Positions 9,582-63,658 of a stretch of DNA of 64,000 nucleotides are shown here, piece by piece. The stretch lies in contig NZ_VULX01000012.1 in the NCBI RefSeq assembly GCF_009696465.1, forward strand, positions 1 through 64,000, written 5' to 3'. The notes below the pieces were generated by a model. That model did not search any database and was not told the origin of the DNA. It was given only the letters and a program-made list of their open reading frames with translations. Source of the DNA: Inconstantimicrobium porci. Its GTDB lineage: Bacteria; Bacillota; Clostridia; Clostridiales; Clostridiaceae. A program made the position numbers and the translations under genes. The number at the start of each line of letters is the position of its first letter. Positions within the stretch are counted from its first letter, which is position 1.

Positions 9582-10027
9582 ATGGTTATAAATGAAAACA
9601 GTATTTTATATTTTTCAGGAACAGGAAATACATTTGAGATAGCGGAAAAGGTAGCACGGAAAATAGAACTTAAATTAATAAGTGTTGTAGATTTACTTGA
9701 AGAAAAAACAATAGAAATTGATTGTGAAGTTGTTGGATTAGTATTTCCTATTTATTTTGGAGGAGTACCTAAGATAATTGGCAGGATAATTGATAAGATG
9801 GTATCTATAAAATTAAAATATACATTTGCATTGGCTACTTATGGGGGCATGCCTGAAAACCCATTTAGAATATTAGAAAACGAATTAAGAAAAAAGAGAT
9901 AAAATTAGATGCAGGATATTTAATTACTATGCCAGATAACTATATTGCTGTGATTGGTGCTAGAAGAAGGTGTATCTTTTAAAGATAAGAATCACGTTGA
10001 CATTAAGAAAAATAAATGGGAGTGTTA
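9582..10027 (+). pseudogene. Flavodoxin-domain protein, frameshifted and truncated
   Basis: The first 106 codons (9582-9902) encode a flavodoxin-like domain. SGTGNTFEIA is the FMN phosphate-binding loop, and LVFPIYFGGVP and ATYGGMPENP are further FMN-contact segments. The frame then stops within a run of six A. Shifting one base gives KKEIKLDAGYLITMPDNYIAVIGARRR, the expected next part of this family. It soon stops again. The family (flavodoxin with C-terminal ferredoxin domains) is normally about 250 residues long, so both a frameshift and a 3' deletion are present. A GGAGG site supports the start. Confidence 0.7.
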
Positions 10028-10157: not shown

Positions 10158-11357
10158 TTGGGAAAAGCATTAATAATTGGCGCTGGTGGTGTAGCGAATG
10201 TAGTTATTCACAAGTGTTGTCAAAATCCAGAAGTATTTGAGGAGATATGTATAGCAAGTAGAACGATTTCCAAATGTAATGCAATAAAAGCAAAGCTTGA
10301 AGGTGGACAGACTAAAATACAAACTGCAAAGGTTGATGCAAATAACACAGAAATGTTAATTGAATTAATTAACAACTTCAAACCAGATATAGTAATTAAT
10401 GTGGCATTACCATATCAAGATTTAACTATCATGGATGCTTGTTTAGCAACTGGTGTTAATTACATGGACACAGCTAATTATGAGCCTCTTGATACAGCAA
10501 AATTTGAGTATAAGTGGCAATGGGCTTACAGAGAAAAATTTGAAAAAGCAGGAATAACAGCATTATTAGGAAGTGGATTTGATCCAGGGGTAACAGGAGT
10601 ATTTAGTGCATATGCACAAAAACACTATTTTGATGAAATTCATACTATAGATATAGTAGATGCAAATGCTGGAGACCATGGATATCCATTTGCAACTAAT
10701 TTTAATCCAGAAATAAATATAAGAGAAGTAACAGCTAAAGGAAGTTATTTTGAAGATGGTAAGTTTATAGAAACTGAACCAATGTCAATAAAAAGAGTAT
10801 ATGATTTGCCGGAAATAGGACCAAAGGATATATATCTACTTCATCATGAAGAATTAGAATCTTTAGCATTAAATATAAAAGGCATTAAAAAGATGAGATT
10901 TTGGATGACTTTCTCAGAAAGTTATTTAAATCATTTAAAAGTACTAGAAAACGTAGGAATGACATCTATAGAACCGATAGAATTTGAAGGAAAACAAATA
11001 GTTCCATTACAATTCTTAAAAGCAGTTTTACCAGATCCAGCATCATTAGGTCCTAGAACTAAAGGTAAGACAAACATTGGATGCATATTTACGGGCATTA
11101 AGGATGGTAAGGAAAAGACTTATTATGTCTACAATGTATGTGATCATCAGGAATGTTATAAAGAAGTAGGTTCACAAGCAATTTCTTATACAACTGGAGT
11201 TCCAGCAATGATTGGTGCAATGATGTTAATGACAGGGAAGTGGAACAAACCTGGTGTGCATAATATAGAGGAATTTGATCCTGATCCATTTATGGAGCAA
11301 TTAAATAAGCAAGGATTACCTTGGCAAGAAAGCTTTTCACCAAATTTAATAGATTAG
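10158..11357 (+). CDS. Carboxynorspermidine synthase (saccharopine dehydrogenase family)
   Basis: This enzyme condenses aspartate semialdehyde with a diamine, using NADPH, to give carboxyspermidine (from putrescine) or carboxynorspermidine (from diaminopropane). The 399-residue protein begins with a Rossmann motif, ALIIGAGGVANVV, and continues with the saccharopine-dehydrogenase fold (VINVALPYQDLTIMDACLATGVNYMDTANYE). The start is TTG, 8 bases after AGGAGG. nspC follows after 10 bases, which makes the assignment firm, because the pair forms the aspartate-semialdehyde route to spermidine. The gene opens an operon with the other polyamine genes. It is often called CASDH. Confidence 0.92.
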   Translation: MGKALIIGAGGVANVVIHKCCQNPEVFEEICIASRTISKCNAIKAKLEGGQTKIQTAKVDANNTEMLIELINNFKPDIVINVALPYQDLTIMDACLATGVNYMDTANYEPLDTAKFEYKWQWAYREKFEKAGITALLGSGFDPGVTGVFSAYAQKHYFDEIHTIDIVDANAGDHGYPFATNFNPEINIREVTAKGSYFEDGKFIETEPMSIKRVYDLPEIGPKDIYLLHHEELESLALNIKGIKKMRFWMTFSESYLNHLKVLENVGMTSIEPIEFEGKQIVPLQFLKAVLPDPASLGPRTKGKTNIGCIFTGIKDGKEKTYYVYNVCDHQECYKEVGSQAISYTTGVPAMIGAMMLMTGKWNKPGVHNIEEFDPDPFMEQLNKQGLPWQESFSPNLID

Positions 11358-11367
11358 GTAAAAAGAT

Positions 11368-12498
11368 ATGAGTATAGATTTTAATTCATTAAAGACACCA
11401 TGTTATGTAGTAGACGAGAGTTTATTAATTAAAAATCTTGAACTATTAAAATATGTACAAGATAAAACAGGATGTAGCATTCTTTTAGCTCAAAAAGGAT
11501 TTTCTATGTATTCTGTCTATCCTCTTGTAGGAAAGTATCTAAAAGGTGTTACTTCTAGTTCTCTTTTTGAGGCTAAATTAGGTTATGAAGAGATGGGAAA
11601 GGAAGTACATATTTATGCACCTGCTTATAAAGAAGATGAATTTGATGAAATAATGAAATATTCAGATCATATTGTATTTAATTCTTTCAGTCAGTGGAAT
11701 AAGTTCAAAGATAAGATTAAAAATTCAACGAAACACATAGAATGTGGAATTAGGATTAATCCTGAATATTCAGAAATTGAAACTGATATATATAATCCTT
11801 GTTTTGAAAATTCAAGACTTGGAACAATACTAGATAATTTTAGAGAAGAAGATTTAGAAGGTATAGATGGATTACATTTTCATACTATGTGTGAGCAAAA
11901 TTCAGATACGCTAGAACGTACTTTAAAAGTAGTTGAAGAAAAGTTTGGAGAGTACCTTAAAGGTATGAAATGGCTTAATTTTGGTGGAGGGCACCATATA
12001 ACAAGAACAGATTATGATGTTGAAAAGTTAATAAAATGTATATCATATATGCAAGAGAAGTACGACATTAAAATATATTTAGAACCAGGAGAAGCAGTAG
12101 CTTTAAATACAGGTTTTTTAGTATCTACGGTTTTAGATGTAGTAAAAAATAATATGGATTTAGCGATTATGGATACTTCAGCAGCTTGTCATATGCCAGA
12201 TGTATTAGAGATGCCATATAGACCTAATATTATAAATTCAGGAATGCCTAATGAAAAAAAGTATACTTATAGATTAGGGGGACCAACTTGTCTTGCTGGA
12301 GATATAATTGGAGACTATTCGTTTGAAGAGCCATTAAAACCTGGAGATAAACTAGTATTTTGTGATATGGCTCATTATTCAATGGTTAAGAATAATACTT
12401 TTAATGGAATTAACTTACCTGATATAGTTCTTTGGGGAAAAGATGGAGCTAAGATAATAAAGACTTTTAATTATGAAGATTTTAAAAGACGTTTATAA
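11368..12498 (+). CDS. nspC: Carboxynorspermidine decarboxylase
   Basis: This PLP enzyme of the alanine-racemase-fold decarboxylases removes the carboxyl group from carboxy(nor)spermidine to give (nor)spermidine. The 376-residue protein starts FNSLKTPCYVVDESLL and carries the PLP lysine in ILLAQKGFSMY. GLHFHTMCEQ, LNFGGGHHITR and YLEPGEAV are phosphate- and substrate-binding segments. LAGDIIGDY near the C-terminus is the conserved Asp region. The length is normal. It sits directly after the synthase. A hairpin with a T run follows and separates it from speD, so the two halves of the operon may be expressed at different levels. Confidence 0.93.
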   Translation: MSIDFNSLKTPCYVVDESLLIKNLELLKYVQDKTGCSILLAQKGFSMYSVYPLVGKYLKGVTSSSLFEAKLGYEEMGKEVHIYAPAYKEDEFDEIMKYSDHIVFNSFSQWNKFKDKIKNSTKHIECGIRINPEYSEIETDIYNPCFENSRLGTILDNFREEDLEGIDGLHFHTMCEQNSDTLERTLKVVEEKFGEYLKGMKWLNFGGGHHITRTDYDVEKLIKCISYMQEKYDIKIYLEPGEAVALNTGFLVSTVLDVVKNNMDLAIMDTSAACHMPDVLEMPYRPNIINSGMPNEKKYTYRLGGPTCLAGDIIGDYSFEEPLKPGDKLVFCDMAHYSMVKNNTFNGINLPDIVLWGKDGAKIIKTFNYEDFKRRL

Positions 12499-12540
12499 AA
12501 ATAAGGATAAATAATTATAGGGAAATATAGATAAATTAAG

Positions 12541-12586
12541 GTGGGTAAAAGTAATTTTAATAGTAAAAAGGTTTTACCCACTTTTT
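12541..12586 (+). terminator. Terminator or attenuator between nspC and speD
   Basis: GTGGGTAAAA (12541-12550) pairs with TTTTACCCAC (12572-12581) and is followed by TTTTT. It lies inside the polyamine gene cluster, directly before the speD ribosome-binding site. It could end a first transcript or attenuate the second. The A-rich loop has no recognised ligand-binding fold. Confidence 0.7.
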
Positions 12587-12619
12587 ACAATGTATAAAAG
12601 TAAAAAGGAGGTCAGAGAT

Positions 12620-13459
12620 TTGGGTGATAAATTAAAACTATATGGATTTAATAATCTTACAAAAACTCTTAGTTTTAATATTTATGATGTTTGTTATGCA
12701 AAAAGTGAGAGGGAGCAAAAGGATTATATAGCTTATATAGATGAACAATATAATTCGGACAGATTAACAAAGATATTATGTAAAGTTACTGAAATGGTAG
12801 GAGCTCATGTTCTTAATATTTCAAAACAGGATTATGATCCTCAAGGTGCTAGTGTAACTCTTTTAATAACAGAAAAAGCATTACCAGCAAAACTTATAGA
12901 TAAGTCATGTAATCTTGGAAAGTATTCAGGTGCAGATGATGGAACAGAGGCAGAAGCTAAGATTATATCAACTAGAGATTCTATAGTGGGACATTTAGAT
13001 AAAAGTCATGTAACAGTACATACTTATCCAGAGTATCATCCAGGTAATTCTATTGCCACCTTTAGAGTAGATATTGATGTAGCTACTTGTGGAGAAATTT
13101 CTCCTTTAAATGTACTAGATTATTTAATTGGAAGTTTTGATTCAGATATTATAACTATTGATTATAGAGTAAGAGGATTTACTAGAAGTATTGATGGTCA
13201 TAAACTTTTTATTGATCATAAAATAACCTCTATTCAAGATTATATATCTGATGAAACATTAAAGAAGTATGATGCTGTTGATATTAATGTATACGAGGCT
13301 AACATGTTTCATACAAAGATGCTTATTAAAGAGATAGATTTACAAAATTATTTGTTTAATACGGATGTTTATGAAATAAATCCAAAGACAAGACTCGCGA
13401 TATCTACTAATTTAAGAAGAGAAATGATAGAGATATTTAGTGGGAGAAATATTTATTAA
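12620..13459 (+). CDS. speD: S-adenosylmethionine decarboxylase proenzyme
   Basis: This enzyme supplies decarboxylated SAM, the aminopropyl donor for SpeE. It is the long Enterobacteria-type Spe[57 protein letters not shown] and FHTKMLIKE all match that type closely. The proenzyme cleaves itself before Ser129 in HLDKSH, which becomes the pyruvoyl group. I chose the TTG at 12620, because AAAGGAGG lies 8 bases before it and the protein then aligns with the known N-terminus. An upstream ATG at 12590 lies before the ribosome-binding site. An insert of about 15 residues ([12 protein letters not shown]) precedes the cleavage site. Confidence 0.93.
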
Positions 13460-20233: not shown

Positions 20234-21811
20234 ATGAGTGAATTTTTATGTAGCAGATATGATAATTTAGGACCTTATGTACCAGGAGAACAGCCAAAAG
20301 ATAAGCAATATATAAAGCTTAACGCTAATGAAACATCAATGCTTCCTTCACCAAATGTAATGAAAGTGTTAAAAAGTAGTAGAATGGACAGGCTTGGCTT
20401 TTACGGAGACCCTGATGCAATAGAGCTTAGAAAAGCACTTGCAGAAAGATATGATGTAGATATAGATGAAGTGTTTGTAGGAAACGGATCAGATGCAGTT
20501 TTATCAGTGATTTTCCTTGCATTTTTTGATGATAAAGAGAAGATAGCTTTTCCTGATATAACATATGGATTTTATAGAACTTTTTCAAAGTCATTTGCTA
20601 TTGATGCAATGGAGATGCCATTAAAAGACGATTTTACAGTTGATGTAGATGGATATATAGAAAGTGGAAGACACATTGTTTTAGCTAATCCAAATGCACC
20701 AACAGGTTATTCAATTCCTGTTTCTGAAATTGAAAGAATGCTTAAATCAGACAGCAAAAGGCTTGTAGTAATAGATGAGGCTTATATTGATTATGATATT
20801 GAAAATGAGTCATGCGTACCATTAATCAAGAAATATAAAAATCTTATAGTAGTACATACAATGTCTAAGTCAAGGAACTTAGCAGGAGCTCATATTGGTT
20901 ACTGCATAGCAGATAAAGCTTTAATAGAAGATTTGAATGAAATAGACTTATGTGAAAAGATTAAAGAATTTGATGTATTATTAACAGCGTTTATTCCTAT
21001 TAATAAGAAAGTTTTAGATTGTGCATTAAATCTTAAGTGCATATCAGTAAATGCAACTGGTTATGGAAATATTGATGTTGATGAAGCTACAAAAAGGAAT
21101 ATCGCAGTATGTAATGTTAAAGAATACTGCACTAAAGAAGTAGCAGAACACACAATGGCATTAATGTTGTCAATGCTAAGGATGTTAAAGCATTATGGTA
21201 AAGAAGTAGACGAGGGCATATGGAATTATCAAAGTGCATCAGAAATTGAACGTATTTCAGGAAAGACTTTGGCTATATTTGGTTTTGGAAGAATTGGACA
21301 GGCAGTAGCAAAGAGGGCAAAAGCATTTGATATTAATGTAATCACTGTAGATCCATATATACCTAAAGAAATACCTGATAGTCTTGGATTTACTCTTGTA
21401 TCTAAGGAACAGGCCTTAAAAACAGCAGATATAATCAGTAATCACATGAATCAGACAATGGAGAACAAAAGCTACTTTTCTTTTGATGAGTTTAAGATGA
21501 TGGAAAGAAAACCATATTTCTTGAATATAGCAAGAGGAGAATGTGTAGACGAAGATGCTCTAGTAATGGCCCTTGATAACGGATTTATAAAGGGCGCTGC
21601 GTTAGATGTTTTGAGGGAAGAAAACCCTGATTTGAAAAATAACATTCTTACAAAGTATGAAAATGTCTACCTTACACCTCATGCTGCATTTTACTCAAAA
21701 ACATCAATTAAAGAATTGCAGAGAATTTCATGTGAAAACATTATTTGTTATATGACAAAGAATTATGAAAAAGTTTTTGGAATAGTAAATAAAGGAGTAT
21801 GTGATAGGTGA
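20234..21811 (+). pseudogene. Chimera: HisC-like aminotransferase fused to a D-2-hydroxyacid dehydrogenase
   Basis: The frame from ATG 20234 encodes 525 residues. The first ~240 are a HisC-type PLP aminotransferase: YIKLNANETSMLPSP, GNGSDAVLSVI, LANPNAPTGY, VIDEAYIDY and the PLP lysine region TMSKSRNLAGAHIGY. At about residue 244 (after IEDLNEI, near base 20944) it changes in frame to a D-isomer-specific 2-hydroxyacid dehydrogenase: NIDVDEATKRNIAVCN, the NAD motif GFGRIGQAV, IARGECVDEDAL (catalytic Arg) and LTPHAAFY (catalytic His). HisC lacks its last third and the dehydrogenase its first ~40 residues. This is no known domain architecture; an in-frame deletion joining two genes explains it. 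The open frame extends upstream to 20012, but without coding character. Confidence 0.75.
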
Positions 21812-22350
21812 TGAATAAAGCTTTATCAATGGAGATGGAACAGCTTACAAAAGATTTAGTTTCAATCAGCAGTGTTAATGGAACTAGTGGAGAGAAAAAA
21901 ATAGCTGAATTTATTGAAAGCTATTTAAGAGAAATTCCTTATTTTAAGCAACACAGTAACAATGTAATAATTCAGAGCCTTAAAGATGATAAATTAGACC
22001 GTAGAAATGTATTTGCTTATATTAAAGGTGAAAACAATAATACAGGAAAAACAATAATGTTACATGGCCATATGGATACTGTTGGGGTTGATGACTTTGG
22101 AGGATTAAAGGAATTTGCATCAATTGCTACAGCAGAGACTACTGATGAGGCACTTACAATAGCTATGGAAAAATTAGTTAAATTTTTCTGTGATAATGAT
22201 GATATGGATTTCTATGACGCTGGTTTCTTATGTGGGTTGTATGCAAACCTTGAAATAAGTCAGGTAGTAGATCCTTTAAAAACTGCAAGAATGGCTATTG
22301 ATGAAGAGATTGTAAACCCCATATTAAAAAAAATATTAAAAAAATATTAA
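21808..22350 (+). pseudogene. Chimera: RocB-like M20 peptidase N-terminus with an unrelated tail
   Basis: The first ~105 of 180 residues match the start of the RocB-like M20 metallopeptidases (DLVSISSVNGTSGEKKIAEFIESYL, then the metal-binding LHGHMDTVGVDDFGGLKEFA). A RocB protein would continue for over 400 more residues. Instead the sequence changes abruptly to SIATAETTDEALTIAMEKLVKFFCDNDDMDFYDAGF..., which I cannot assign to a family. It has normal coding composition and ends in an A-rich run (ILKKILKKY). The missing M20 metal ligands mean it cannot be an active peptidase. It overlaps the preceding chimera by 4 bases, so both chimeras share one transcript. Confidence 0.7.
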
Positions 22351-38149: not shown

Positions 38150-38853
38150 ATGAGTGATTTTAGTCATGTGATTAATAAAATGCTGGACAAATCAATTAAA
38201 TTTATTTTGTATCAGTGATTTTAAAGATTATATGGAATATAAATACATGTAGTTATCCTAATTCAGATTTCAAGGTGATGTACGATATAGCTGGTGATAT
38301 GATTAAAGGAGATTTTTCTGGTATGAAGGGGTTAGGGTATATAGCAAGATTTCCTCATCTTACTTTTACTGTCAAGTATATGTTGTTTATTAAATTTCTT
38401 GCACCATATCATAATATTCTAATAATGAAAATGATCAATATATCATTTAGTACAGTAACAGTTTTTATAGTATATTTAATAGCTGATATTTTGTTTGAAA
38501 ATAAGAAAAAATCTATGGCGGCTTTGATAATTGCAAGTTTGTTTCCAACTTTTATAACATATACAGCTGTTTTTTGCGGTGAAAATATAGCCATGATATT
38601 TTATGTTTTAAGTATTTATCTTTATTTACTTATCATAATTATTATAAGCAGTAGCCTTCAGAAATGCAGGGTGACTGAGAGACCTTTATGGAGTGGCAGT
38701 GAACCAAAGATAACCAATATATTAAAAGGAACTAATTTTGAGAGTCTGGGAATGTGGAATGAAAGAGATGCTCAGTTTGTTGAGAAAAATCTGGGCAATT
38801 ATACTAAACTTATAGTTCAGTGTAGAAATAAAATCCTTATAAAATCCTTATAA
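38150..38853 (+). pseudogene. Glycosyltransferase family 39-like gene, frameshifted and internally deleted
   Basis: ATG 38150 opens a 22-codon frame (MSDFSHVINKMLDKSIKFILYQ), and the coding signal then shifts to the frame of 38215-38853. That part has PNSDFKVMYDIAGDMIKGDFSG, then membrane helices and LFENKKKSMAALIIASLFPTFITYTAVFCGENIAMIFYVLSIYL, as in membrane glycosyltransferases of the GT39 type. It then jumps to what looks like the C-terminal end (SLGMWNERDAQFVEKNLGNYTKL). About 300 residues, including most helices, are missing. It lies between the operator at 38036 and the ABC transporter genes and cannot be functional. Confidence 0.75.
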
Positions 38854-51887: not shown

Positions 51888-52577
51888 ATGGAGTTAGAGA
51901 TAAAAAATATTACAAAGAAGTTTAAGGACAAGACAGCAGTAAATAATTTTAATGTTACACTTTTTGAAGGAATATATGGGCTTTTAGGACCAAATGGTTC
52001 TGGTAAGACAACTCTTATGAGAATGATTGCTGATGTTGTTAAGCCTACTGAAGGGATAATAATGATTAATGGCAGGAATAGAAAAATCAAAGGTTTTTCA
52101 GAAGGAATGAAAGAAAGACTTGGAATAGCACAGGCACTTTTAAATGATCCTAAAATACTTATTCTTGATGAGCCTACAGCTGGCCTTGATCCTAATGAGC
52201 GCATAAGGTTTAAGAATATGATTGCAAGGCTGTCTAAGGATAAGATAGTTATACTTTCAACTCATATAGTTTCTGATGTAGAATTTCTTGCTAATGAAAT
52301 CGTTATCATGAAGCAGGGCAGTCTCGTTGAGAAAAATACTACTTCTGGTATTACTGATAAAATGCGTGGGAAGGTATGGTCATTAATAGTGGATGAACAA
52401 AAGTATGGCGATATTATGGATAAATATAAAATATCTAAAACATCAATGGATAATGGCTTTGTGACAGTTAGAATTGTAAGTGATGAAAAGCCTGCTGCAT
52501 CAGCTGTAGAACAGAAACCAACTTTAGAAGATATGTTTTTATATTACTTTGGAGAGGTAGCTGAGAAACTGCGATAG
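51888..52577 (+). pseudogene. ABC transporter ATPase with the Q-loop region deleted
   Basis: The 229-residue frame has Walker A GPNGSGKTT, then MINGRN, and jumps directly to RKIKGFSEGMKERLG (signature) and LILDEPTAGLDP (Walker B). In related ATPases 55-65 residues, including the Q-loop that contacts the permease, stand between these points. The loss is in frame and close to residue 65, with similar codons (AGG AAT AGA AAA) at the joint. The signature reads SEGMK in place of the usual SGGMK. The protein can be made but is unlikely to couple ATP hydrolysis to transport. Its permease gene downstream is also broken. Confidence 0.7.
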
Positions 52578-53283
52578 ATCTAATAAAGTTTGAACTTAAA
52601 AAGATATTCAGCAATAAGCTTATTTATATAGTCATGGCAGCACTCTGTGTAACAATATTGATTAATCTTTATCAGGACAACAATAAAATAAATGAGTATT
52701 TCGGCAGTAAGGATACATTTTTGTCTGTTGTTGAAAAGTATAAGAATAGTGCATATTCACCAGCGCAGAGTCAGGAATTGTTAGAGTCAGCACAGGAAAA
52801 AAGGCTAAATGAGGATAAGTTAAGCAGAGATGAAAAATTTGTTATTGATTATATCTTGTATTAGGACTAGCGTCAATATATTCAAAGGAATATACGACTA
52901 GAGTATCATATTTGAATTTGAGTACCAAAAAAGGAAGAACATCATTAAATACAGCGAAAATAATAGCAGCGCTTTTATATACGATAATTATCTTTGCTTT
53001 CGTAACTGTAATAAATAGGATAAGTACAATGATTCTTGGACTGCCTAATGGTGGTGCCGCCATGAACAGTTTTGGTGAATATAATATTTTTAATATGAGT
53101 GTGAATCAGTATTATGGATATACACTAGCACTAAGTCTACTAAATATTTAGAGGTTATCTTTCATTTGCTGTTTTTGGAAAAGCAGTCATCTATCCTTAT
53201 ATAATAATAACATTTGCAGTTGTTGCAATAATTATAATGTTAGTATTATGTCATGTTTTCAATAAGAAACAGGTAATTGCATA
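52568..53283 (+). pseudogene. ABC permease remnant in three pieces
   Basis: Three stretches of the same permease can be read. 52571-52862 begins IDLIKFELKKIFSNKLIYIVMAALCVTILINLY without a start codon. About 52866-53150 has IYSKEYTT...STKKGRTSLNTAKIIAALLYTIIIFAFVTVINR. About 53155-53283 has LSFAVFGKAVIYPYIIITFAVVAIIIMLVLCHVFNKKQ. Stops and deletions separate them, and most of the membrane helices of a normal ~400-residue permease are gone. It is the partner of the damaged ATPase just upstream. Both lie behind the insertion sequence, which separates them from any earlier promoter. Confidence 0.75.
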
Positions 53284-53374
53284 AATTTAGTGTTGATAGT
53301 AAGCTCCCTCTTTCTTAAGTCTATTGCGCATATAGCAATTAGATGGTAAAATATAGGAAAAAGGGGGCGGCTTT

Positions 53375-54178
53375 GTGAAGTTAATAAATAATTTAAGAAA
53401 GAATCACAGCATAGTATTCTGTGTATTATTTGCATTTGTTTATATGGTACTTTTTAATTTAGTGGGCTTGGCAGTAGCTTTTCTAAAGCTTGATAGCATG
53501 ATGTCACAATCCCTTGTAGAACTGATATGTATTGGATTTGCTGTGTTTATTATGTATAAACTTAAAATGAAAAATTTTTTAAAAGAAAAAGGAACTGGGT
53601 TCTTTAAAGGTTTGTTTACAGGTATGTTTTTGCTTTGTTTATCATTATATGTATTTGCAATTGGACTTATAATGAGTGTGTTTTCAGATAAAATAGGAAT
53701 TACAGAGATATTTAATATTTTAATTATGTCTGTATCTGTGGGGTTATGTGAAGAATTTGTTTTCAGAGGTATAGTTGTAAACATACTCAAAGAAAAGTAT
53801 GGGGATAGTAAGAAGGAAATTTATATTACTGTATTTACAGCAGGTATTATTTTTGGACTAATACATCTTACTAATATATTAGCAGGAGCGTCTTTTCAAG
53901 GAACAATAGTGCAGGTAATTTGTGTAATGGCATTAGGATCATATTTGGCAGCTGTATATGTAAGATGCAGAAATATATGGTCAATGGCTTTCTTGCATGG
54001 ATTAAATGATTTCGCAGCCTTTCTTGTGGCAGGAGCATCTACAATGCAGTCAGTTACAGGGTCTATATCATCATATGGACTAATAAAGCTTATTACTATT
54101 CCTATATATTTAATTCCTACTTTTATACTTCTTAGAGAGAGTAAAATAACAAAAATTATAGGTAATCAAGATAAATAA
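53375..54178 (+). CDS. CPBP/CAAX-type intramembrane metalloprotease
   Basis: This 267-residue membrane protein with about eight helices has the three motifs of the CPBP family: the glutamate pair EEFVFRG (near residue 128), FGLIHLTNI, and HGLNDF. In bacteria these proteases are linked to bacteriocin self-immunity and peptide-stress resistance. The start is GTG, after GGGGGCGG. It lies directly before a Bce-type two-component system, 25 bases away, so a role in antimicrobial-peptide defence is a reasonable inference. Confidence 0.88.
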   Translation: MKLINNLRKNHSIVFCVLFAFVYMVLFNLVGLAVAFLKLDSMMSQSLVELICIGFAVFIMYKLKMKNFLKEKGTGFFKGLFTGMFLLCLSLYVFAIGLIMSVFSDKIGITEIFNILIMSVSVGLCEEFVFRGIVVNILKEKYGDSKKEIYITVFTAGIIFGLIHLTNILAGASFQGTIVQVICVMALGSYLAAVYVRCRNIWSMAFLHGLNDFAAFLVAGASTMQSVTGSISSYGLIKLITIPIYLIPTFILLRESKITKIIGNQDK

Positions 54179-54203
54179 ATTTAATATACGAAGGAAATGC
54201 GGT

Positions 54204-54881
54204 GTGCTAATGGTTAAAATAGTTATTGTTGAAGATGATAAAAATATAAGAAATGAATTATATACTTTTTTAAAAAGAAATGGCTATGATGTTGAAAAAC
54301 CAGATGATTTCAGCAGTATTATTGATTATATAAAAGAAGCTGATGCCGATTTGATATTGCTTGATATAAATCTTCCTATGTTTGATGGATATTATGTATG
54401 CAGGGAAGTAAGAAAGATTTCAGATGTGCCAATAATAGTCGTTACAAGTAGAGATAGCGATCTTGATGAACTGATGAGCATGAATATTGGTGCAGATGAT
54501 TTTATAACCAAGCCTTATAATTTGCAGATCCTCTTAGCAAGGATATCAGCAGTACTTAAGAGATGTAAAAGAAGCAATATGCAGAGTGACGTTATTACAT
54601 ATAATGGTATAAAGGTTAATGTACTTAACGGCACTGTATCATTTAATGATAAAAGTATTGAAGTAACAAAGAATGAACTTAAGATATTATCATATATGAT
54701 TAAAAACAAAGGGAAAATAGTTTCAAGAGAATCTCTGATGACGTATTTATGGGATTGTGAGATGTTTGTTGATGATAACACTCTATCTGTGAATATGACA
54801 AGAATTAGAAAGAAACTTGAAAGCATTGGTGTAAGCAATATCATTGATACAAGAAGAGGACTGGGGTACATTATATCATGA
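54204..54881 (+). CDS. BceR-like response regulator
   Basis: The 225-residue OmpR-type regulator has the receiver acidic pair in VEDDKN, phosphorylated Asp in LLDINLPMFDGYYVCREVR, switch residues VVTSR and FITKPYN, and a winged-helix output domain (VTKNELKILSYMIKNKGKIVSRESLMTYLWDCEMFVDDNTLSVNMTRIRKKL). The DGY..CR text and the output domain are typical of the BceR group. The start is GTG 54204, 9 bases after AAGGA; ATG 54210 is an alternative. It overlaps the kinase gene by 4 bases (ATGA). Confidence 0.93.
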   Translation: MLMVKIVIVEDDKNIRNELYTFLKRNGYDVEKPDDFSSIIDYIKEADADLILLDINLPMFDGYYVCREVRKISDVPIIVVTSRDSDLDELMSMNIGADDFITKPYNLQILLARISAVLKRCKRSNMQSDVITYNGIKVNVLNGTVSFNDKSIEVTKNELKILSYMIKNKGKIVSRESLMTYLWDCEMFVDDNTLSVNMTRIRKKLESIGVSNIIDTRRGLGYIIS

Positions 54882-55900
54882 GTATAAATAGATATTTTAA
54901 AGAAAGGCTGCCTTTTATAATTCTTAATGTTGTACTATGCATAATTGTTTCAGCAACGATGATTATTGCAGGGTTTTCTTATTTTGCTGTAGTTTCTCTA
55001 GTTTGTGCCTGGTTTATACCGCTGATTACATACATGATTTATCAGTGCTTAAAGTTTAAGAGGTATATTGATAATATTGTTGCAGTCAGCGAAGATCTTG
55101 ATAGAAAATATCTTCTTCCTGAGATTATAGATGAAGAAGATTTTATGGAAGCAGAGGTAATATGCAGCATTTTAAGAGATGCTGACAAGTCTATGCATCA
55201 AGAAGTGAAAATATATGAAAATGAGCAGAAGGAATACAAAGAGTATATAGAGACATGGATTCATGAGATAAAAACACCTATTTCATCAATAGAGCTGATT
55301 GTTGCTAACAGTGATGATAATCCTTACAATTTAAAGATAAGTTATGAAATAAAGCGTATAGAAAGATATGTTGAGCAGGTACTTTATTATGCCAAGAGCA
55401 GTGATACCGAGAAAGACTATGTTGTAAGAAAGTTTGATTTACGCAGTTCAGTTATGAAATGCATAAAAAGTAATTCGCTATATTTTATTAATAAAAGGAT
55501 AAAGCTGGACTTTGGTGAAATTAGTGAGCAGATATATAGTGATGAAAAATGGATAATATTTATCATTAATCAGATACTTGTTAATGCAGTAAAGTACTCT
55601 CATGAAGATGATGGGATTATAAAGATATATTCTCATAAGAAGAAAGACAGCGTTGAACTTATAATTGAAGATAACGGTATAGGCATAAATGAAAAGGATA
55701 TAGATAGAGTATTTGAAAAAGGCTTTACAGGGGATAATGGCAGAAAGACAGGAAAGTCTACAGGAATAGGTCTTTATTTATGCAGGAAGCTATGTGATAA
55801 GCTCGGACTTAATATAATGATTTCATCTGAAGAAAACAGAGGAACCAGGGTAGTGGTTATCTTTCCAAAGTCATGTTTAATAGATGAGATATTTTCATAA
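54878..55900 (+). CDS. BceS-like intramembrane-sensing histidine kinase
   Basis: This 340-residue kinase has two closely spaced membrane helices (FIILNVVLCIIVSATMIIAGF and YFAVVSLVCAWFIPLITYMIY) with almost no outside loop, the hallmark of BceS-type kinases, which receive their signal from the partner transporter. The phosphorylated His is in WIHEIKTPISSIEL. ATPase boxes are NQILVNAVKYS, EDNGIGINEKDIDRVFEKGFTG and GIGLYLCRKL. It overlaps the regulator gene, and a terminator follows before the transporter genes. Confidence 0.94.
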   Translation: MSINRYFKERLPFIILNVVLCIIVSATMIIAGFSYFAVVSLVCAWFIPLITYMIYQCLKFKRYIDNIVAVSEDLDRKYLLPEIIDEEDFMEAEVICSILRDADKSMHQEVKIYENEQKEYKEYIETWIHEIKTPISSIELIVANSDDNPYNLKISYEIKRIERYVEQVLYYAKSSDTEKDYVVRKFDLRSSVMKCIKSNSLYFINKRIKLDFGEISEQIYSDEKWIIFIINQILVNAVKYSHEDDGIIKIYSHKKKDSVELIIEDNGIGINEKDIDRVFEKGFTGDNGRKTGKSTGIGLYLCRKLCDKLGLNIMISSEENRGTRVVVIFPKSCLIDEIFS

Positions 55901-55930
55901 AAGCTGATACATTTTATGTATCGGCTTTTA
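55899..55930 (+). terminator. Terminator of the BceRS-like operon
   Basis: AAAAGCTGATACAT pairs with ATGTATCGGCTTTT around a 3-base loop, followed by ATAATT. The A- and T-rich stem ends supply the terminator tail. The transporter genes therefore need their own promoter. Confidence 0.8.
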
Positions 55931-55991
55931 TAATTAATAAGAAAAATATGAGAGTTTTATGCTTATGACATAAGTATATTTTGTATTCAAA

Positions 55992-56037
55992 CTTACAAAT
56001 TCGTAAGTTTACAGAAAGTTAAATCAATATGTAATAT
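55992..56037 (+). promoter_or_regulatory. Palindromic operator and promoter before the Bce-like transporter
   Basis: CTTAC-AAATTC-GTAAG (55992-56007) is followed by TTACAG (56009-56014) and, after 17 bases, TAATAT (56032-56037). The palindrome, the following GAAAGT.AAATC.ATATGTA text and the 40-base distance to the -10 are shared with the site before the Cpr-like module at 38036. It is the likely binding site of the BceR-like regulator, and perhaps of both regulators. Confidence 0.7.
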
Positions 56038-56098
56038 GAACCTATTCTGTTAAAATTATAAAGGAAAATGATAAAAGACATGTGATGGAGGAAAAATA

Positions 56099-56869
56099 AT
56101 GAATGATAATATATTAAAAGTAGAAAATTTAGATAAGTATTATGGTAATAAAGGGTCTATAACAAAGGCAATCAACAATATTAGTTTTAATGTGCGCAAA
56201 GGGGAGTTTGTTGGGATAATGGGGCCTTCAGGAAGCGGCAAGACAACTCTTTTAAACTGTATATCAACTATAGACAAAGTAACAACAGGCAGCATTAATA
56301 TAAATGGTTCTGATATTACTAAAATGAAAGCTAAACAGATTGAAAAATTCAGGAGAGATGAGCTTGGATTTGTGTTTCAGGATTTTAACCTCCTTGATAC
56401 TTTAACATCATATGAAAATATAGCTTTAGCACTTACTATAAAAGGTGAGCAGCACTCAGAGATAGACAAAAAAGTTAAGAGAGTTGCTTTAAGGCTTGGC
56501 ATAGAAGATATTTTAGAAAAATATCCATACCAGATTTCTGGAGGCCAGAAACAGAAGGTAGCATGTGCCAGAGCAATAGTAACATCACCTTCACTTATTC
56601 TTGCAGATGAACCTACAGGAGCACTTGATTCCAAATCATCAAGAATGCTGCTTGAGTCATTTGAGAAACTTAATAAGGAATTATCAGCAACTATCTTAAT
56701 GGTTACACATGATGCATTTACTGCAAGCTATGCTCACAGAATACTATTTATTAAAGATGGCAGAATATTTAATGAAGTAGTAAGAGGCAATGACTTAAGA
56801 AAAGAATTCTTTGACAGGATTATCGAAGTGGTAACCCTTCTTGGAGGTGACTCAGAAAATGTACTATAA
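56099..56869 (+). CDS. BceA-like ABC transporter ATPase
   Basis: The 256-residue ATPase of the MacB/LolD type has Walker A GPSGSGKTT, Q-loop FVFQDFNLLDTLTSYENIALAL, signature ISGGQKQK, Walker B LILADEPTGALDSKSS and the switch His in MVTHDAF. These are all typical of BceA, which drives removal of bacitracin-like peptides from their lipid target. GGAGG precedes the ATG. It overlaps the permease gene by 11 bases. Confidence 0.94.
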   Translation: MNDNILKVENLDKYYGNKGSITKAINNISFNVRKGEFVGIMGPSGSGKTTLLNCISTIDKVTTGSININGSDITKMKAKQIEKFRRDELGFVFQDFNLLDTLTSYENIALALTIKGEQHSEIDKKVKRVALRLGIEDILEKYPYQISGGQKQKVACARAIVTSPSLILADEPTGALDSKSSRMLLESFEKLNKELSATILMVTHDAFTASYAHRILFIKDGRIFNEVVRGNDLRKEFFDRIIEVVTLLGGDSENVL

Positions 56870-58871
56870 AATAGCATTGAGTAATGTTAAAAAGAGTTTT
56901 AAGGATTATGCAATATATTTTCTGACACTTTCATTTGCAGTCTGTATCTTTTACAGCTTTAATTCTATTGAAGCGCAGAAAGCGTTCATTGAACTTGGTA
57001 AAAGCCAAAACAAGATAATGCAGAGCATGATGAGTATCATAGATATTGTATCTGTATTTGTATCAATAATCTTAGGCTGCCTGATAATTTATGCTAACAA
57101 CTTCCTCATTAAAAAGCGCAAAAAGGAATTTGGTATATATTTTACTTTAGGGATGCCAAAGAAAAAGATATCCATTATACTTTTTATGGAGACATTTCTT
57201 GTAGGTATCTTATCGCTGGTAGCAGGACTAGCTATAGGCATATTTATCTCACAGGGGCTTTCAGCTTTTACAATCAAGATGTTTCAGATTGATATGAGTG
57301 CGTATAAATTTGTATTTTCTATAAAAGCACTTATCAAGACTTCACTGTACTTTGCTATCATTTTCATACTTGTAATAATCTTTAATTCATTTATGATATC
57401 AAAATACAAACTTATAGATATGATTAATGCTTCAAGAAAAAATGAGGAAATGAAGATTAAAAAAAATGCTGTTTCATTTATCATTTTTATTCTCGGCATA
57501 GCATTTATAGCAACTGAATGTTACCTGGTAAAGATAACAGGCAGAGATATGCAGAGTAAGAATTTAAAGATTGCAGCTGCTTTGGCAATAATATCAATTT
57601 TCCTTATTTTTTATGGTTTAAGCGGCTTATGTATTAATCTTATTAAGAAAAATAGAAAGGTGTATTTTAAAAATCTTAATATTTTTGTAGCAAGACAGAT
57701 TTACAGTAAAATTAATACTAATTTTATATCAATGTCAATAATATGTATCATGCTTTCGTTAACTGTTATAGTTCTATCTACAGGGCTTAGCTTTAAACAG
57801 ATTCTTGAGAATAGTTTAAGAGAAAATACTTCGTTTGATGCCTCTGCAAGAATGTATATTGATAATAAGACACCTGTGAAAAGTATTGAAGATGCTTTCA
57901 AAAAGATGAATGTTACTTTTAAAGATAATGTAGAATGCAGATATTTAAATGTGTATGGACTGAATACACCTGTAGAAGATATTATTGGAAAGTATGCGGA
58001 TGATAAAAAAGATGTCAGTGATTATAAATATACACCAGCTATCAGAATTTCTGATTATAATAATATGCAGAAACTTAGGGGAGAAAAAACAATTGATCTT
58101 AAAGATAATCAGGTTATTGTAACATCTAATCATGGGACAATGTCTAGTGCAGCAGATAAGATGGTAAACTCAGGAGATAGTATTATTTTAAGAAATGAAA
58201 AGTTTACTATAGCCAACAAAGAAGTTATGCATGAACTTTATTATACAGCATTAGTTAATTACAATTATTTTACACTTATCGTACCTGATAAACTAGCAGA
58301 TGGCTGTGATGTAATTGAGTCTGTTGTTAATATGGAGTATAAAGGTGATAAGGAGAAAACAGAAGAGGAATATGTGAAACTTTTAAGAGATATTACACTA
58401 TCAAGAAACTCATATAAGCTGGATGGAGTATATATAAGCGGTGATACAAGAGAAAGGGTAATAGAATCAAATAAAGGATTTTATACAACATTGCTTTTTG
58501 TTGGAGTATACCTGGGAATAATTTTTCTGCTAGCCAGTGCAGCAGTTCTTGCTCTGCAACAGCTTTCTGAAGCAAGCGACAGCAGTGAAAGATATGTATC
58601 GCTAAAAAGAATAGGTGCATCTAAAAGTATTATTAATAAAAGCATTTTTATTCAAATACTGATATATTTTATTTTTCCACTCATTTTATCAATAGTTCAT
58701 TCAGTAATCGCTATTCTTTATATAAGTGATTACCTGAATTCTTTTGGCAAAGGATATATACTGCCTTCAGCGCTTTTCACAGCTGGTGTTATCATACTAA
58801 TTTATGGTGGATACTTCTATGTGACATACAATGGCTATAAGGCAGTAGTCAAAGGATATAATCATAATTAA
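56859..58871 (+). CDS. BceB-like ABC transporter permease
   Basis: This 670-residue permease has the BceB layout: ten membrane helices, FtsX-like domains at both ends, and a large extracellular domain (about residues 310-530) that recognises the peptide. The start MYYKIALSNVKKSFKDYAIYFLTLSFAVCIFYSFNSI is typical. I chose ATG 56859, 12 bases after GGAGG; the frame is open further upstream, inside the ATPase gene. It senses the peptide and signals to the BceS-like kinase while also conferring resistance. Confidence 0.94.
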   Translation: MYYKIALSNVKKSFKDYAIYFLTLSFAVCIFYSFNSIEAQKAFIELGKSQNKIMQSMMSIIDIVSVFVSIILGCLIIYANNFLIKKRKKEFGIYFTLGMPKKKISIILFMETFLVGILSLVAGLAIGIFISQGLSAFTIKMFQIDMSAYKFVFSIKALIKTSLYFAIIFILVIIFNSFMISKYKLIDMINASRKNEEMKIKKNAVSFIIFILGIAFIATECYLVKITGRDMQSKNLKIAAALAIISIFLIFYGLSGLCINLIKKNRKVYFKNLNIFVARQIYSKINTNFISMSIICIMLSLTVIVLSTGLSFKQILENSLRENTSFDASARMYIDNKTPVKSIEDAFKKMNVTFKDNVECRYLNVYGLNTPVEDIIGKYADDKKDVSDYKYTPAIRISDYNNMQKLRGEKTIDLKDNQVIVTSNHGTMSSAADKMVNSGDSIILRNEKFTIANKEVMHELYYTALVNYNYFTLIVPDKLADGCDVIESVVNMEYKGDKEKTEEEYVKLLRDITLSRNSYKLDGVYISGDTRERVIESNKGFYTTLLFVGVYLGIIFLLASAAVLALQQLSEASDSSERYVSLKRIGASKSIINKSIFIQILIYFIFPLILSIVHSVIAILYISDYLNSFGKGYILPSALFTAGVIILIYGGYFYVTYNGYKAVVKGYNHN

Positions 58872-59734
58872 GAGCAGTAATTTCTTTTAAAAGCATCAAT
58901 AACTTTTAATATCTTGTTATCTGGCTGTTCAGTCATTGAAGAAACATAATCATTTAATGCATTATAGGTTTTTACAGCCAGATATTTTACTTCATTCATG
59001 TATATTTCATACTGATTCATTTTATTTAGCATTGTAATTAAAGATTTAATAGATGATATTTTTTCATATATCTGAACCTCTATATCTTCACAGCCTGAAA
59101 TTGAAGTAGATGTATCTCTGTAGTTATAAAGTACAGAATTAATAGCACCTATATTGTTACAGCAGAGCATCACATTTCTTATAAAATCTATATCTTCATA
59201 GGCAGTATTTTCTCTAAAAAGTATATTGTTGTCTATGATAATTTCTCTTTTAATTATTTTGCTCCAGATAAAACCGCCATGTAGCATGAGATCTTTTCTT
59301 TTTGCAATATCAAGCGTACCACAGGCTGCTTCCGAAGTAGTTAAGAAATCCTCTTCTAGCGCTTCATAATAAAATGCAGAATCAATCATATCATAATCAT
59401 TCTTTACCGCTTTTTCGTAAAGTTCTTCATACATCGTATAAAAGACATCATCATCACTGTCAACAAATCCTATGTATTTCCCATTGGCAGCTTTAATGCC
59501 TGCATTTCTTGCTCCACCAGGGCCTCTTCTTGTTTCATTGTTTATTAATTTTATGAGATGACTGTATTTATTTTTATATTCTTCTGCAATAGAAAGGCTG
59601 TTATCAATTGAACAGTCATTGACAAGGATTATTTCAATTTCCTTTAAAGACTGATGTATAAGCGATTCTATGCAGCGTGAGAGATAATTTTCTGAATTAA
59701 ATATTGGAACAATTATCGAAATCTTAATATCCAT
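58868..59734 (-). CDS. Family 2 glycosyltransferase
   Basis: The 288-residue protein begins ISIIVPIFNSENYLSRCIESLIHQSLKEIEIILVNDCSIDNS, the GT2 nucleotide-sugar fold, with the metal-binding VDSDDDV and ARNAGIKAANGKYIGF. The C-terminal part (NTAYEDIDFIRNVML) carries the ED motif of inverting transferases. No membrane helix is seen. It probably adds sugar to a cell-surface glycan or teichoic acid. Its end overlaps the BceB-like gene by 4 bases on the opposite strand. Confidence 0.9.
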   Translation of the reverse strand: MDIKISIIVPIFNSENYLSRCIESLIHQSLKEIEIILVNDCSIDNSLSIAEEYKNKYSHLIKLINNETRRGPGGARNAGIKAANGKYIGFVDSDDDVFYTMYEELYEKAVKNDYDMIDSAFYYEALEEDFLTTSEAACGTLDIAKRKDLMLHGGFIWSKIIKREIIIDNNILFRENTAYEDIDFIRNVMLCCNNIGAINSVLYNYRDTSTSISGCEDIEVQIYEKISSIKSLITMLNKMNQYEIYMNEVKYLAVKTYNALNDYVSSMTEQPDNKILKVIDAFKRNYCS

Positions 59735-60100: not shown

Positions 60101-61696
60101 ATGAAAGACAAAATATTTGGTGTTTTACAACGTGTGGGTAGATCATTTATGCTTCCAATAGCATTGCTTCCAGTAGCAGGTCTATTTTTAGGACTTGGCG
60201 GTTCATTTACAAATAAAACAATGCTTGAAGCTTACGGACTTATGGGTATTATGGGTCCTGGAACAGTAATTAATGCTATATTAACAGTAATGAATGATGC
60301 TGGAAATATTGTTTTCTCAAATCTTCCAATATTATTTGCAATGGGTGTTGCAATTGGTATGGCTAAGAAAGAAAAAGAAGTTGCTGCACTTTCAGCAGCT
60401 ATAGCATTCTTTATCATGCATGCATCAATAGGTGCAATGATAAATATAAATGGTGGAACAGAAGCTTTATTAGAAGGAGCATCTACATCAGTTTTAGGAA
60501 TTACATCATTACAGATGGGTGTTTTTGGTGGTATTATTGTAGGTCTTGGAGTAGCAGCACTACATAATAGATTTTATAAGATACAATTACCACAAGTGTT
60601 ATCATTTTTTGGTGGTTCAAGATTCGTGCCAATAATAAGTGCAGTTGTATACTTAATAGTAGGTATAGCAATGTTCTTTATATGGCCTCCAGTTCAGAAG
60701 GGTATATATGCAGTTGGTGATGTCGTATTAAAATCAGGATATGCAGGTACTTGGTTATATGGATTAATGGAACGTGCTCTTATTCCATTTGGACTACATC
60801 ACGTATTTTATTTACCATTCTGGCAGACAGCACTTGGTGGAACTTTAGAAGTTGGTGGAAAACTTATAGAAGGAGCTCAGAATATATTCTTTGCTGAACT
60901 TGCTACACCTGGAATAACTAAATTCAGCGTTTCTGCTACTAGATTTATGGCTGGTAAGTTCCCACTTATGATGTTTGGTTTACCTGGTGCAGCTCTTGCT
61001 ATGTACAAATGTGCAAAGCCAGGAAAGAGAAAGGTTGTTGGTGGACTTTTATTATCAGCTGCCTTAACTTCAGCAGTAACAGGAATAACTGAACCAATTG
61101 AGTTTACATTCTTATTTGTTGCTCCACTTTTATATGCAATACACTGCGTATTTGCTGGCGTTGCATATATGCTTATGCACATTATGAATGTAACAATAGG
61201 TATGACATTCTCTGGTGGTTTTATTGATTTCTTCTTATTTGGTATTTTACAAGGTAATGCTAAAACAAACTGGTTAATTGTATTACCTGTAGGAATAGCT
61301 TATTTTGTAGTTTACTATTTCATTTTCTCAATATTAATTAAGAAGATGAATCTAAAGACTCCTGGTAGAGAAGACGACAATGAAGAAACTAAACTTTACA
61401 CTAGAAAAGATGTTGAAGCAAGAAAGAACGGAGAAAATGGTTCAGAAGCTAATACTTCAGAAGATTCACTTTCAGCTGCTATAGTTGAAGGACTTGGTGG
61501 AAAAGAAAATATATCAGATGTAGATTGCTGTGCTACAAGATTACGTTGTACTGTATACAAATCAGAACTTGTAAAAGATGATGTGTTAAAGCAGACAGGT
61601 GCATCTGGAGTTGTTCATAAAGGGCAAGGTGTTCAGATAATATATGGACCAAGAGTTACAGTAATTAAATCAAACTTAGAAGATTATTTAGCGTAG
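60101..61696 (+). CDS. ptsG: PTS glucose-type enzyme IICB
   Basis: This 531-residue sugar permease has an N-terminal IIC membrane domain (VLQRVGRSFMLPIALLPVAGLFLGLG start, MERALIPFGLHHVFYLPFWQTALGG and TGITEPIEFTFLFVAPLLYAIH as sugar-binding signatures) and a C-terminal IIB domain with the phosphorylated Cys in DVDCCATRLRC. A linker of ~50 charged residues joins them. No IIA domain is attached, so a separate IIA must supply phosphate. Glucose as substrate is inferred from the GlcT-type leader; maltose or other glucosides are possible within this superfamily. Confidence 0.9.
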   Translation: MKDKIFGVLQRVGRSFMLPIALLPVAGLFLGLGGSFTNKTMLEAYGLMGIMGPGTVINAILTVMNDAGNIVFSNLPILFAMGVAIGMAKKEKEVAALSAAIAFFIMHASIGAMININGGTEALLEGASTSVLGITSLQMGVFGGIIVGLGVAALHNRFYKIQLPQVLSFFGGSRFVPIISAVVYLIVGIAMFFIWPPVQKGIYAVGDVVLKSGYAGTWLYGLMERALIPFGLHHVFYLPFWQTALGGTLEVGGKLIEGAQNIFFAELATPGITKFSVSATRFMAGKFPLMMFGLPGAALAMYKCAKPGKRKVVGGLLLSAALTSAVTGITEPIEFTFLFVAPLLYAIHCVFAGVAYMLMHIMNVTIGMTFSGGFIDFFLFGILQGNAKTNWLIVLPVGIAYFVVYYFIFSILIKKMNLKTPGREDDNEETKLYTRKDVEARKNGENGSEANTSEDSLSAAIVEGLGGKENISDVDCCATRLRCTVYKSELVKDDVLKQTGASGVVHKGQGVQIIYGPRVTVIKSNLEDYLA

Positions 61697-61722: not shown

Positions 61723-62182
61723 GGGGCTGTCGCACAACTAATTAGAAATTAGTTGTGTAGCGGCTCTTTTTTTATGCAAAAAAAACAAATCCTAAACTCA
61801 AAGAGAATAGGATTTATCAGATTTATATATGACTTATTCCAAAGTTAAGGAAAATCAAGCTTTGCCACGAAAGTTACTAAAAATCATATTATATGGATAT
61901 ATGAACGGACTTTATTCATCAAGAGATATTGAAAAAGCCTGCTACAGAGATATTAATTTTATCTTTTTACTAGAAGGATCAAAAGCCCCAGATCATTCAA
62001 CTATCGCAAGATTTAGGACTCTTCATTTTGCACCTTATGCTGAACAGATTCTTGCTCAAACAACTAATTCCCTTTATGAAATTGGTGAAATTTCAGGTGA
62101 GTCAATATTTATAGATGGAACAAAAATAGAGGCTAGTTCCAATAAATTCACATTTGTTTGGAAGAGAGCTGTTACTAAAAAT
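61723..62182 (+). mobile_element. IS1182-family element, left-end fragment
   Basis: GGGGCTGTCGCAC at 61723 is a typical IS1182 terminal sequence. It forms a large hairpin with the complement ending GTGTAGCGGCTC (61753-61772) and a T run. A small hairpin (AAATCCT/AGGATTT) follows. From 61829 the transposase N-terminal region is readable (YSKVKENQALPRKLLKIILYGYMNGLYSSRDIEKACYRDINFIFLLEGSKAPDHSTIARFR). The usual first ~45 residues are absent, and the element stops at about 62182, where PTS sequence begins. The right end and catalytic region are gone. Confidence 0.8.
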
Positions 62183-63658
62183 ATGCTTAAAGCATATGGA
62201 TTGTTAAATATAATGGGACCAGGAACAGCTGTTAATTCAATTCTTCTGATAATGAATGATGCAGGAAATATTATTTTTAATAATCTACCGATACTTTTTG
62301 CAATGGGTGTTGCTATAGGTATGTCAAAGAAGGAAAAGGAAGTTGCAGCTCTTTCTGCAGCTATAGCATTTTTTGTGATGTATGCATCAATAGGCTCGAT
62401 GATTAAAATCAGCGGCGGAGCTAAAGTGTTTATGAATGGTGCAACTACTTCTGTAGTTGGAATTACATCATTACAGATGGGGGTGTTTGGTGGAATTATA
62501 GTTGGACTTGGAGTTGCTGTATTACATAATAGATTTTATAAAGTAGAACTTCCGGAGGTGCTATCATTTTTTGCTGGTACAAGGTTTGTGCCAATAATAA
62601 GTGCGATAGTGTATATAATTATTGGGATAGTAATGTTCTTTATTTGGCCGCCTGTTCAGACTGCAATCAATGCACTAGGTAGGTTTGTTATAGCATCAGG
62701 ATATGCAGGTACATGGTTTTATGGTTTTGTGGAACGTGCACTTATTCCATTTGGTCTTCATCATGTATTTTATCTGCCATTTTGGCAGACAGCAGTTGGA
62801 GGAACGGCTGTAGTAGCAGGTAAAACTATAGAGGGAGCACAGAATATATTCTTTGCCCAGCTTGTTCAACCGGGAATTCATCATTTTAGTGTTTTAGCAA
62901 CAAGATTTATGTCAGGCAAGTTTCCACTAATGATATTTGCATTGCCAGGAGCCGCTCTTGCAATGTATAGAAGCGCAAAGCCACAAAAGAGAAAGATTGT
63001 AGGAGGATTACTTCTATCAGCAGCTTTAACATCAATGCTGACAGGTATTACAGAACCAATTGAATTCACTTTTTTGTTTGTAGCACCCAAATTATATATA
63101 GTACACTGTGTGTTTGCAGGTCTATCTTACATGATAATGCACATACTGAATGTAGGTGTAGGAATGACGTTTTCAGGTGGCTTTATTGATATGTTCTTGT
63201 TTGGAATATTACAGGGAAATGCAAAAACAAATTGGATTAGAATTGTATTAGTGGGGATTGTTTACTTTATAATTTATTATTTCTTATTCAGCTTTTTCAT
63301 TAAAAAGTATAATATTAAAACTCCTGGACGTGAAGATGAAGAGAAGGTAAAGCTTTATAGGAGAAAGGATAATTACTCAAAAGAGAAATTATCTAAAAAT
63401 GAATCATTAGCGATAATTGTAGAAGGATTTGGCGGCAAGGATAATATAATTGATGTTGACTGTTGCGTAACTAGATTAAGATGTACAGTGAAAGATTATA
63501 ATCTTGTTAATGAAGATATATTAGAGAATTCAGGAGCAGTAGGAGTTATTCATAGAGGTAATGGAGTTCAGGCTATTTATGGGCCAAGAGCTACAGTAAT
63601 AAAATCTGATCTTGAAGATTATCTTGATGATTATCATAAAAATGCTGGGATTAACTGA
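61829..63658 (+). pseudogene. In-frame chimera of IS1182 transposase and a second PTS EIICB
   Basis: One unbroken frame encodes 609 residues. Residues 1-118 are transposase, ending ESIFIDGTKIEASSNKFTFVWKRAVTKN. From residue 119 (MLKAYGLLNIMGPGTAVNSIL) the sequence is a PTS EIICB highly similar to the gene at 60101, matching it from its residue 41 to the end, with the IIB Cys in DVDCCVTRLRC. The first 40 residues of the EIICB, with its first membrane helix, have been replaced. A deletion starting in the IS and ending in a tandem ptsG paralogue explains this. Whether a protein is made and works is open; Met119 could serve as an internal start but has no clear ribosome-binding site. Confidence 0.82.

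Follow-up and report, generated by a model that had tools for sequence, protein, structure and literature searches.

Two adjoining gene chimeras in Inconstantimicrobium porci as probable remains of a five-gene operon

New open reading frames (ORFs) may form when loss of the intervening DNA brings the start of one ORF into line with the end of a second, a process termed deletion-born fusion (Kaul, Rossine, Brinda and Baym, bioRxiv; Kaul et al. 2026, PMC12803068), and a literature search for this term returned that preprint only. In the part of the preprint drawn on here, relatives are reported to retain the split form, the fusions recovered by screening share at least 80% identity with the split ancestor, and one example, narX, is a composite of genes from a single operon. 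The same part reports fusions that lack catalytic domains and have no clear beneficial function, and describes how fusions spread by hitch-hiking when the deletion is itself beneficial.

Here we consider two adjoining ORFs of Inconstantimicrobium porci, located in a window that comprises the whole stretch of 64,000 nucleotides analysed (contig NZ_VULX01000012.1 of assembly GCF_009696465.1, positions 1 to 64,000 of the forward strand). A first-pass annotation had described the ORF at 20234-21811 (chimera 1) as a chimera of HisC and a 2-hydroxyacid dehydrogenase, and this description holds: the ORF is an uninterrupted frame of 525 aa that begins as a HisC-like aminotransferase and continues as a D-2-hydroxyacid dehydrogenase (Table 1). 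A program-made ORF list begins the same frame further upstream, at an ATG at 20012 (599 aa), yet in alignments the homologues begin at the position equivalent to 20234. Among Pfam families, Aminotran_1_2 matches residues 25-237 (profile positions 2-244 of 361) and 2-Hacid_dh_C (PF02826) matches residues 308-485 (profile positions 1-178 of 178), so that the NAD-binding domain is complete, while the match to 2-Hacid_dh (PF00389) begins at profile position 27 of 134, leaving the substrate-binding (catalytic) domain incomplete. The closest relatives of both halves in a search of 206 genomes of the family are two separate ORFs of G189, a genome of the same family but another genus, and the 75% amino acid identity of each half to them excludes a chance origin of the match. 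The genome of I. porci itself contains 12 further matches to chimera 1 (22-36% identity, in frames of 315-617 aa), all of them paralogous aminotransferases or dehydrogenases.

The residues singled out by the first-pass annotation are in place. The aminotransferase part keeps the PLP lysine (K212, within SMSKS) and, as had been stated, is without its C-terminal third (the homologue at locus L035 runs to 358 aa, of which the match covers up to ~238), and the dehydrogenase part retains the NAD motif GFGRIG together with the equivalents of R434, E463 and H483, as read from alignments; K212 and these last three we take, from their families, to be catalytic. Chimera 1 has residues 11-237 and the PLP lysine in common with HisC (TIGR01141), but it lacks the C-terminal small domain and scores 180.8 bits against this model, below the curated cut-off of 276.55. 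Similarly, the NAD-binding domain and the Arg-Glu-His set are those of D-isomer-specific 2-hydroxyacid dehydrogenases (PF02826/PF00389; phosphoglycerate dehydrogenase and glyoxylate reductase types), whereas the substrate domain has lost its first ~43-48 residues, with two-thirds of an aminotransferase in their place, and the score falls under the D-2-hydroxyacid dehydrogenase equivalog cut-offs examined.

The suspicion that the adjacent gene is a second chimera (chimera 2) proved correct, since it joins the start of an M20/RocB-like metallohydrolase to the end of an acetamidase/formamidase. A 4-base overlap between the two genes, as previously claimed, exists if translation begins at the GTG at 21808, but shrinks to 1 base if it begins at the ATG at 21811. 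The last ~70-78 residues of chimera 2 match the C-terminus of acetamidase/formamidase proteins of ~300 aa; the ORF matches no Pfam family at E 0.001, and its NCBIfam matches lie far under the cut-offs.

Table 1 Coordinates of the two chimeras and their junctions in the window, and of the five full-length genes at locus L070 of G189
Feature	Position	Strand	Amino acid identity	Remarks
HisC-like PLP aminotransferase, N-terminal ~235 of ~358 residues	20234..20935	+	76% to L070 8047-9123; 63% to L035 5899-6975	5' part of chimera 1
Junction 1	20936..20945	+		exact breakpoint cannot be fixed, AATG being present in both G189 parental proxies
D-2-hydroxyacid dehydrogenase minus first ~43-48 residues	20946..21811	+	75% to L070 9143-10147	3' part of chimera 1
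M20/RocB-like metallohydrolase, N-terminal ~102 of ~551 residues	21811..22110	+	76% to L070 10168-11823	5' part of chimera 2; alternative start GTG 21808
Junction 2	22111..22119	+		parental proxies have TGCTT and 10 of 17 bases in common
Acetamidase/formamidase (FmdA_AmdA), C-terminal part	22120..22350	+	76-78% to L070 12662-13579, a protein matching PF03069	3' part of chimera 2
hisC-like	L070 8047-9123	same as other four		G189 operon gene 1
Dehydrogenase	L070 9143-10147	same as other four		G189 operon gene 2
M20	L070 10168-11823	same as other four		G189 operon gene 3
DDAH-like	L070 11842-12675	same as other four		G189 operon gene 4; Pfam match DDAH/ADI
FmdA	L070 12662-13579	same as other four		G189 operon gene 5; Pfam match FmdA_AmdA

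At locus L070 of G189, all five genes from which the chimeras are composed, or which would have stood between them, are present at full length, in the order seen in the window. The DNA of the window aligns with L070 in three blocks, which contain the start of the hisC-like gene (75% identity over 716 bases), the dehydrogenase and the start of the M20 gene (74% over 1180 bases), and the end of FmdA (80% over 194 bases). Judging by the alignment offsets, ~523 bases (8749 to 9272 of L070) and ~2884 bases (10477 to 13361) are absent, and these missing segments are the ordinary remainder of the five genes, with no mobile element or prophage inserted in a gene. The lost pieces are found nowhere else in the I. 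porci genome at E <= 1, except that the C-terminal piece of HisC matches a paralogue at 33%, and both junctions leave the reading frame open.

We consider it very probable that the two chimeras are left over from a five-gene operon of catabolic type that underwent two separate internal deletions. If the five-gene form is ancestral, the operon would have run from the hisC-like gene through the D-2-hydroxyacid dehydrogenase, the M20/RocB-like and the DDAH-like genes to the acetamidase/formamidase. One deletion of ~0.52 kb (with G189 as proxy) would have fused gene 1 with gene 2, and another of ~2.88 kb (same proxy) gene 3 with gene 5, removing gene 4 altogether; with both joins in frame, two ORFs would be left, headed by the beginning of gene 1 and that of gene 3, respectively. 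The earlier proposal that the chimeras are organised as an operon should consequently be turned around, as the genes already stand side by side in G189 and the present arrangement is rather the leftover of their operon.

The distribution of these genes is compatible with a split ancestor. A hisC-like gene and a dehydrogenase gene lie within ~2.1 kb of one another, on the same strand and as separate ORFs, in 8 of the 206 family genomes (E <= 1e-60), and with the fused form present in one genome, parsimony on these counts favours the split form as the probable ancestor, though the sister species G001 has no such operon. The complete five-gene order occurs in one genome only (G189) and most of it in a second, G136, where locus L035 carries the hisC-like, dehydrogenase, M20 and DDAH-like genes in the same order and the contig ends soon afterwards; at five loci of other relatives (L036, L040, L043, L071 and L073) M20 is located on the opposite side of hisC. 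In G001, neither half of chimera 1 has a match above 37% identity and M20 has none, and without a close relative of the operon genes there, no parent is seen within the genus. The PTS operon that adjoins the chimeras in the window is also present in G001 (84% identity), with other genes around it, and of the ORFs of at least 100 aa in 12 kb of that region, none is from the hisC operon.

From its gene content, the cluster of HisC-like, dehydrogenase, M20 and DDAH-like genes at L035, L070 and L071 (with FmdA also present at L070) may perhaps serve guanidino or amino acid catabolism; a literature search on the gene set of the operon yielded nothing useful. Next to the G189 operon, on the minus strand, a regulator that we name PucR-like from reading its sequence (L070 6795-7756) consists of two overlapping ORFs of 190 and 130 aa and looks frameshifted, its counterpart at L035 being a single ORF of 395 aa. 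No remnants of a PucR-type regulator or of the DDAH-like gene were detected in the window, and the weak matches elsewhere reached E values of 0.12 and 0.059 at best.

The first-pass annotation had proposed looking for short shared sequence at the first junction, and such sequence is present at both. We compared each junction, without gaps, with both G189 parents, using 20,000 random position pairs each and windows of 17 bases that were placed only after the junctions had been inspected. At junction 1 the longest run common to the parents is AATG, of 4 bases (chance 0.08-0.11), and 8 of 17 bases are alike (chance 0.11-0.15), neither of which is significant; at junction 2, the corresponding probabilities for TGCTT and for 10 of 17 bases are 0.014-0.036. 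Short shared bases of this kind would fit deletion between short direct repeats, probably through slippage or end joining, while amounting to proof at neither junction. Promoter-like sites were no more frequent than in shuffled sequence (18 vs 16.5), and no terminator-like site was reported.

A third in-frame fusion lies in the same window, ~40 kb from the chimeras, at 61829-63658, where an IS transposase (DUF772), of which the first ~116 residues are kept, is joined to a glucose-type PTS EIIC/EIIB protein without its first ~40 residues. A transposase copy of 95% identity (L084) elsewhere in the genome serves as reference for this junction, and the window departs from it right after ATGC (62183-62186), and an EIIC paralogue at 60101-61696 (73% amino acid identity) also has ATGC at the equivalent position. 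Counting against our proposal, two joins would both be in frame by chance in ~1/9 of such pairs, or ~1/27 for all three with the transposase junction, a figure unadjusted for open fusions being the ones that are noticed. A Pfam scan covered 38 ORFs of the window besides the two chimeras (8 and 30; seven main ORFs at 51888-59734 lay outside it), and among the 30 no other join of two families is obvious, 4 of them being without a match at E 1e-5. Elsewhere in the window, an ORF of 212 aa at 38215-38853 has a weak, partial match below the cut-off to the PMT_2 membrane glycosyltransferases and a different-looking tail, and may be a gene that was truncated or has lost an internal piece; an ORF of 106 aa at 9582-9902, with a partial flavodoxin match below the cut-off, may likewise be truncated.

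A potential alternative explanation is that the chimeras are selected new genes, chimera 1 being a dehydrogenase or NAD-binding protein with a cap derived from an aminotransferase, and chimera 2 a small regulator or partner. Both of the two joins are in frame, and neither stop nor frameshift interrupts the 1578 and 540 bases of the two ORFs, although a random substitution would produce a stop in ~5.5% of cases for chimera 1 and ~5.3% for chimera 2, and 50 neutral substitutions would leave chimera 1 open in only 6% of cases. Between the window and G189, dN/dS (NG86) is 0.105, 0.112, 0.102 and 0.100 for the four segments, ratios that are rough given a dS of ~1.5, near saturation. Additionally, residue change is not accelerated when the hisC, dehydrogenase (HADH) and M20 parts are pooled (the FmdA part, with one relative only, was left out of this count), as residues unique to the window and to G189 number from 27:42 to 19:19 over nine outgroups and the window is never higher. 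Taken singly, the parts give an excess in the window with some outgroups, namely 18:14 (L072), 16:13 (L073) and 15:11 (L040) for hisC, 19:18 (L042) for HADH, and 6:5 (L036) and 5:4 (L035) for M20. Where all other rows of the alignment agree, the window differs at 2/80, 3/76 and 0/31 columns, inside the range of intact genes. Low dN/dS, the lack of pooled acceleration and the open frames together imply that the chimeras are either young or selected, and a young deletion explains the same data; with no second copy of the fusion known, these data do not separate the two, of which selection is the less likely reading.

What remains of the proteins argues against selected function. In chimera 1 both the HisC small domain and the first part of the substrate domain of the dehydrogenase are missing, and a fold model of it reaches a pTM of 0.56, with mean pLDDT of 36-51 over residues 1-60 (six blocks) and low confidence in the loop of the PLP lysine (212-219). 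The NAD domain, by contrast, is whole and mostly modelled well, 12 of its 18 ten-residue blocks having a mean pLDDT above 90. The alignment behind the model has 28 rows, in which MAFFT set the first ~20-30 dehydrogenase residues against the aminotransferase part, and low confidence there may thus be partly an effect of this misplacement. In aminotransferases of fold type I, the small domain bears substrate-binding residues and the enzyme acts as a dimer; consequently, transamination is not expected of chimera 1 once this domain is lost, and dehydrogenase activity is unlikely. If made, the products would not be working aminotransferases and would be poor dehydrogenases at most, and the first-pass label of "bifunctional-looking" is not supported, given the missing small domain, the score under the HisC cut-off and the low-confidence regions of the model. 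Chimera 2, moreover, retains ~102 of ~551 residues of an M20 enzyme and matches no Pfam family at E 0.001. We therefore regard selected new genes as improbable, and the more specific scenario of two tandem deletion fusions both kept by selection as new genes, one a dehydrogenase capped by aminotransferase sequence and the other a small hydrolase-amidase hybrid, in an operon rebuilt by deletion, as slightly more improbable again.

An assembly artefact, in which an operon still whole in the true genome was collapsed by the assembler, appears very improbable. The genome is assembled in 74 contigs and was judged at the contig level, but the window is free of N, the lost pieces lie on no other contig, and the proxies share just 4-5 identical bases at the junctions, offering an assembler little to join on. 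Two independent collapses would also be needed, each of them keeping the frame, and as far as the contigs tell there is no sign of such an error. A conserved family of bifunctional HisC-dehydrogenase fusions is the least credible explanation of all, for although the two genes are neighbours in the eight family genomes noted above, the usual setting for fusions, and an open frame of 704 aa is listed over both in G167 (L071 5985-8081), the DNA of G167 has an in-frame TGA and then TAA between the genes and this candidate was rejected; a single ORF over both halves occurs in none of 224 other genomes of the order (225 searched, E <= 1e-75), in the I. porci genome alone at the family level (206 genomes, E <= 1e-60, overlapping the order set), at none of the 8 loci found by a pattern scan of genome contigs (close relatives only; all HisC part alone), and in no viral contig. 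Within the scope covered, neither of the two refutations named in the first-pass annotation, a conserved fusion family or an assembly error at the junction, applies.

The two chimeras thus look like recent gene debris, not like a conserved enzyme with two functions, and the deletions themselves would be recent. Overall, this is a case of operon decay by two frame-keeping deletions, real, explained and of modest interest. It offers a clear example of such decay, in which the parents, their order and both junctions are legible, and it warns that automatic annotation might otherwise list a "bifunctional" enzyme that never existed. Were the products in use, the locus would show functional genes born through deletion, something rarely met in nature.

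Set beside deletion-born fusions as described in the part of the preprint considered here (PMC12803068), the locus differs in that the nearest split relative found, G189, shares 74, 75 and 80% DNA identity over the three blocks, against at least 80% in that set, which is a feature of the data set and not of the process. It differs further from the cases in that part in having two fusions adjoining in one operon and in occurring in one known genome only. In the remaining respects covered there, the resemblance is close: both ORFs begin as one gene and end as a second, relatives keep the full-length genes in order (five at L070 and four at L035), and, as with narX, the chimeras are composites of genes from one operon. 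As far as our searches extend, the locus is consequently a new instance of the known process of deletion-born fusion, with the occurrence of two such fusions in tandem being unusual.
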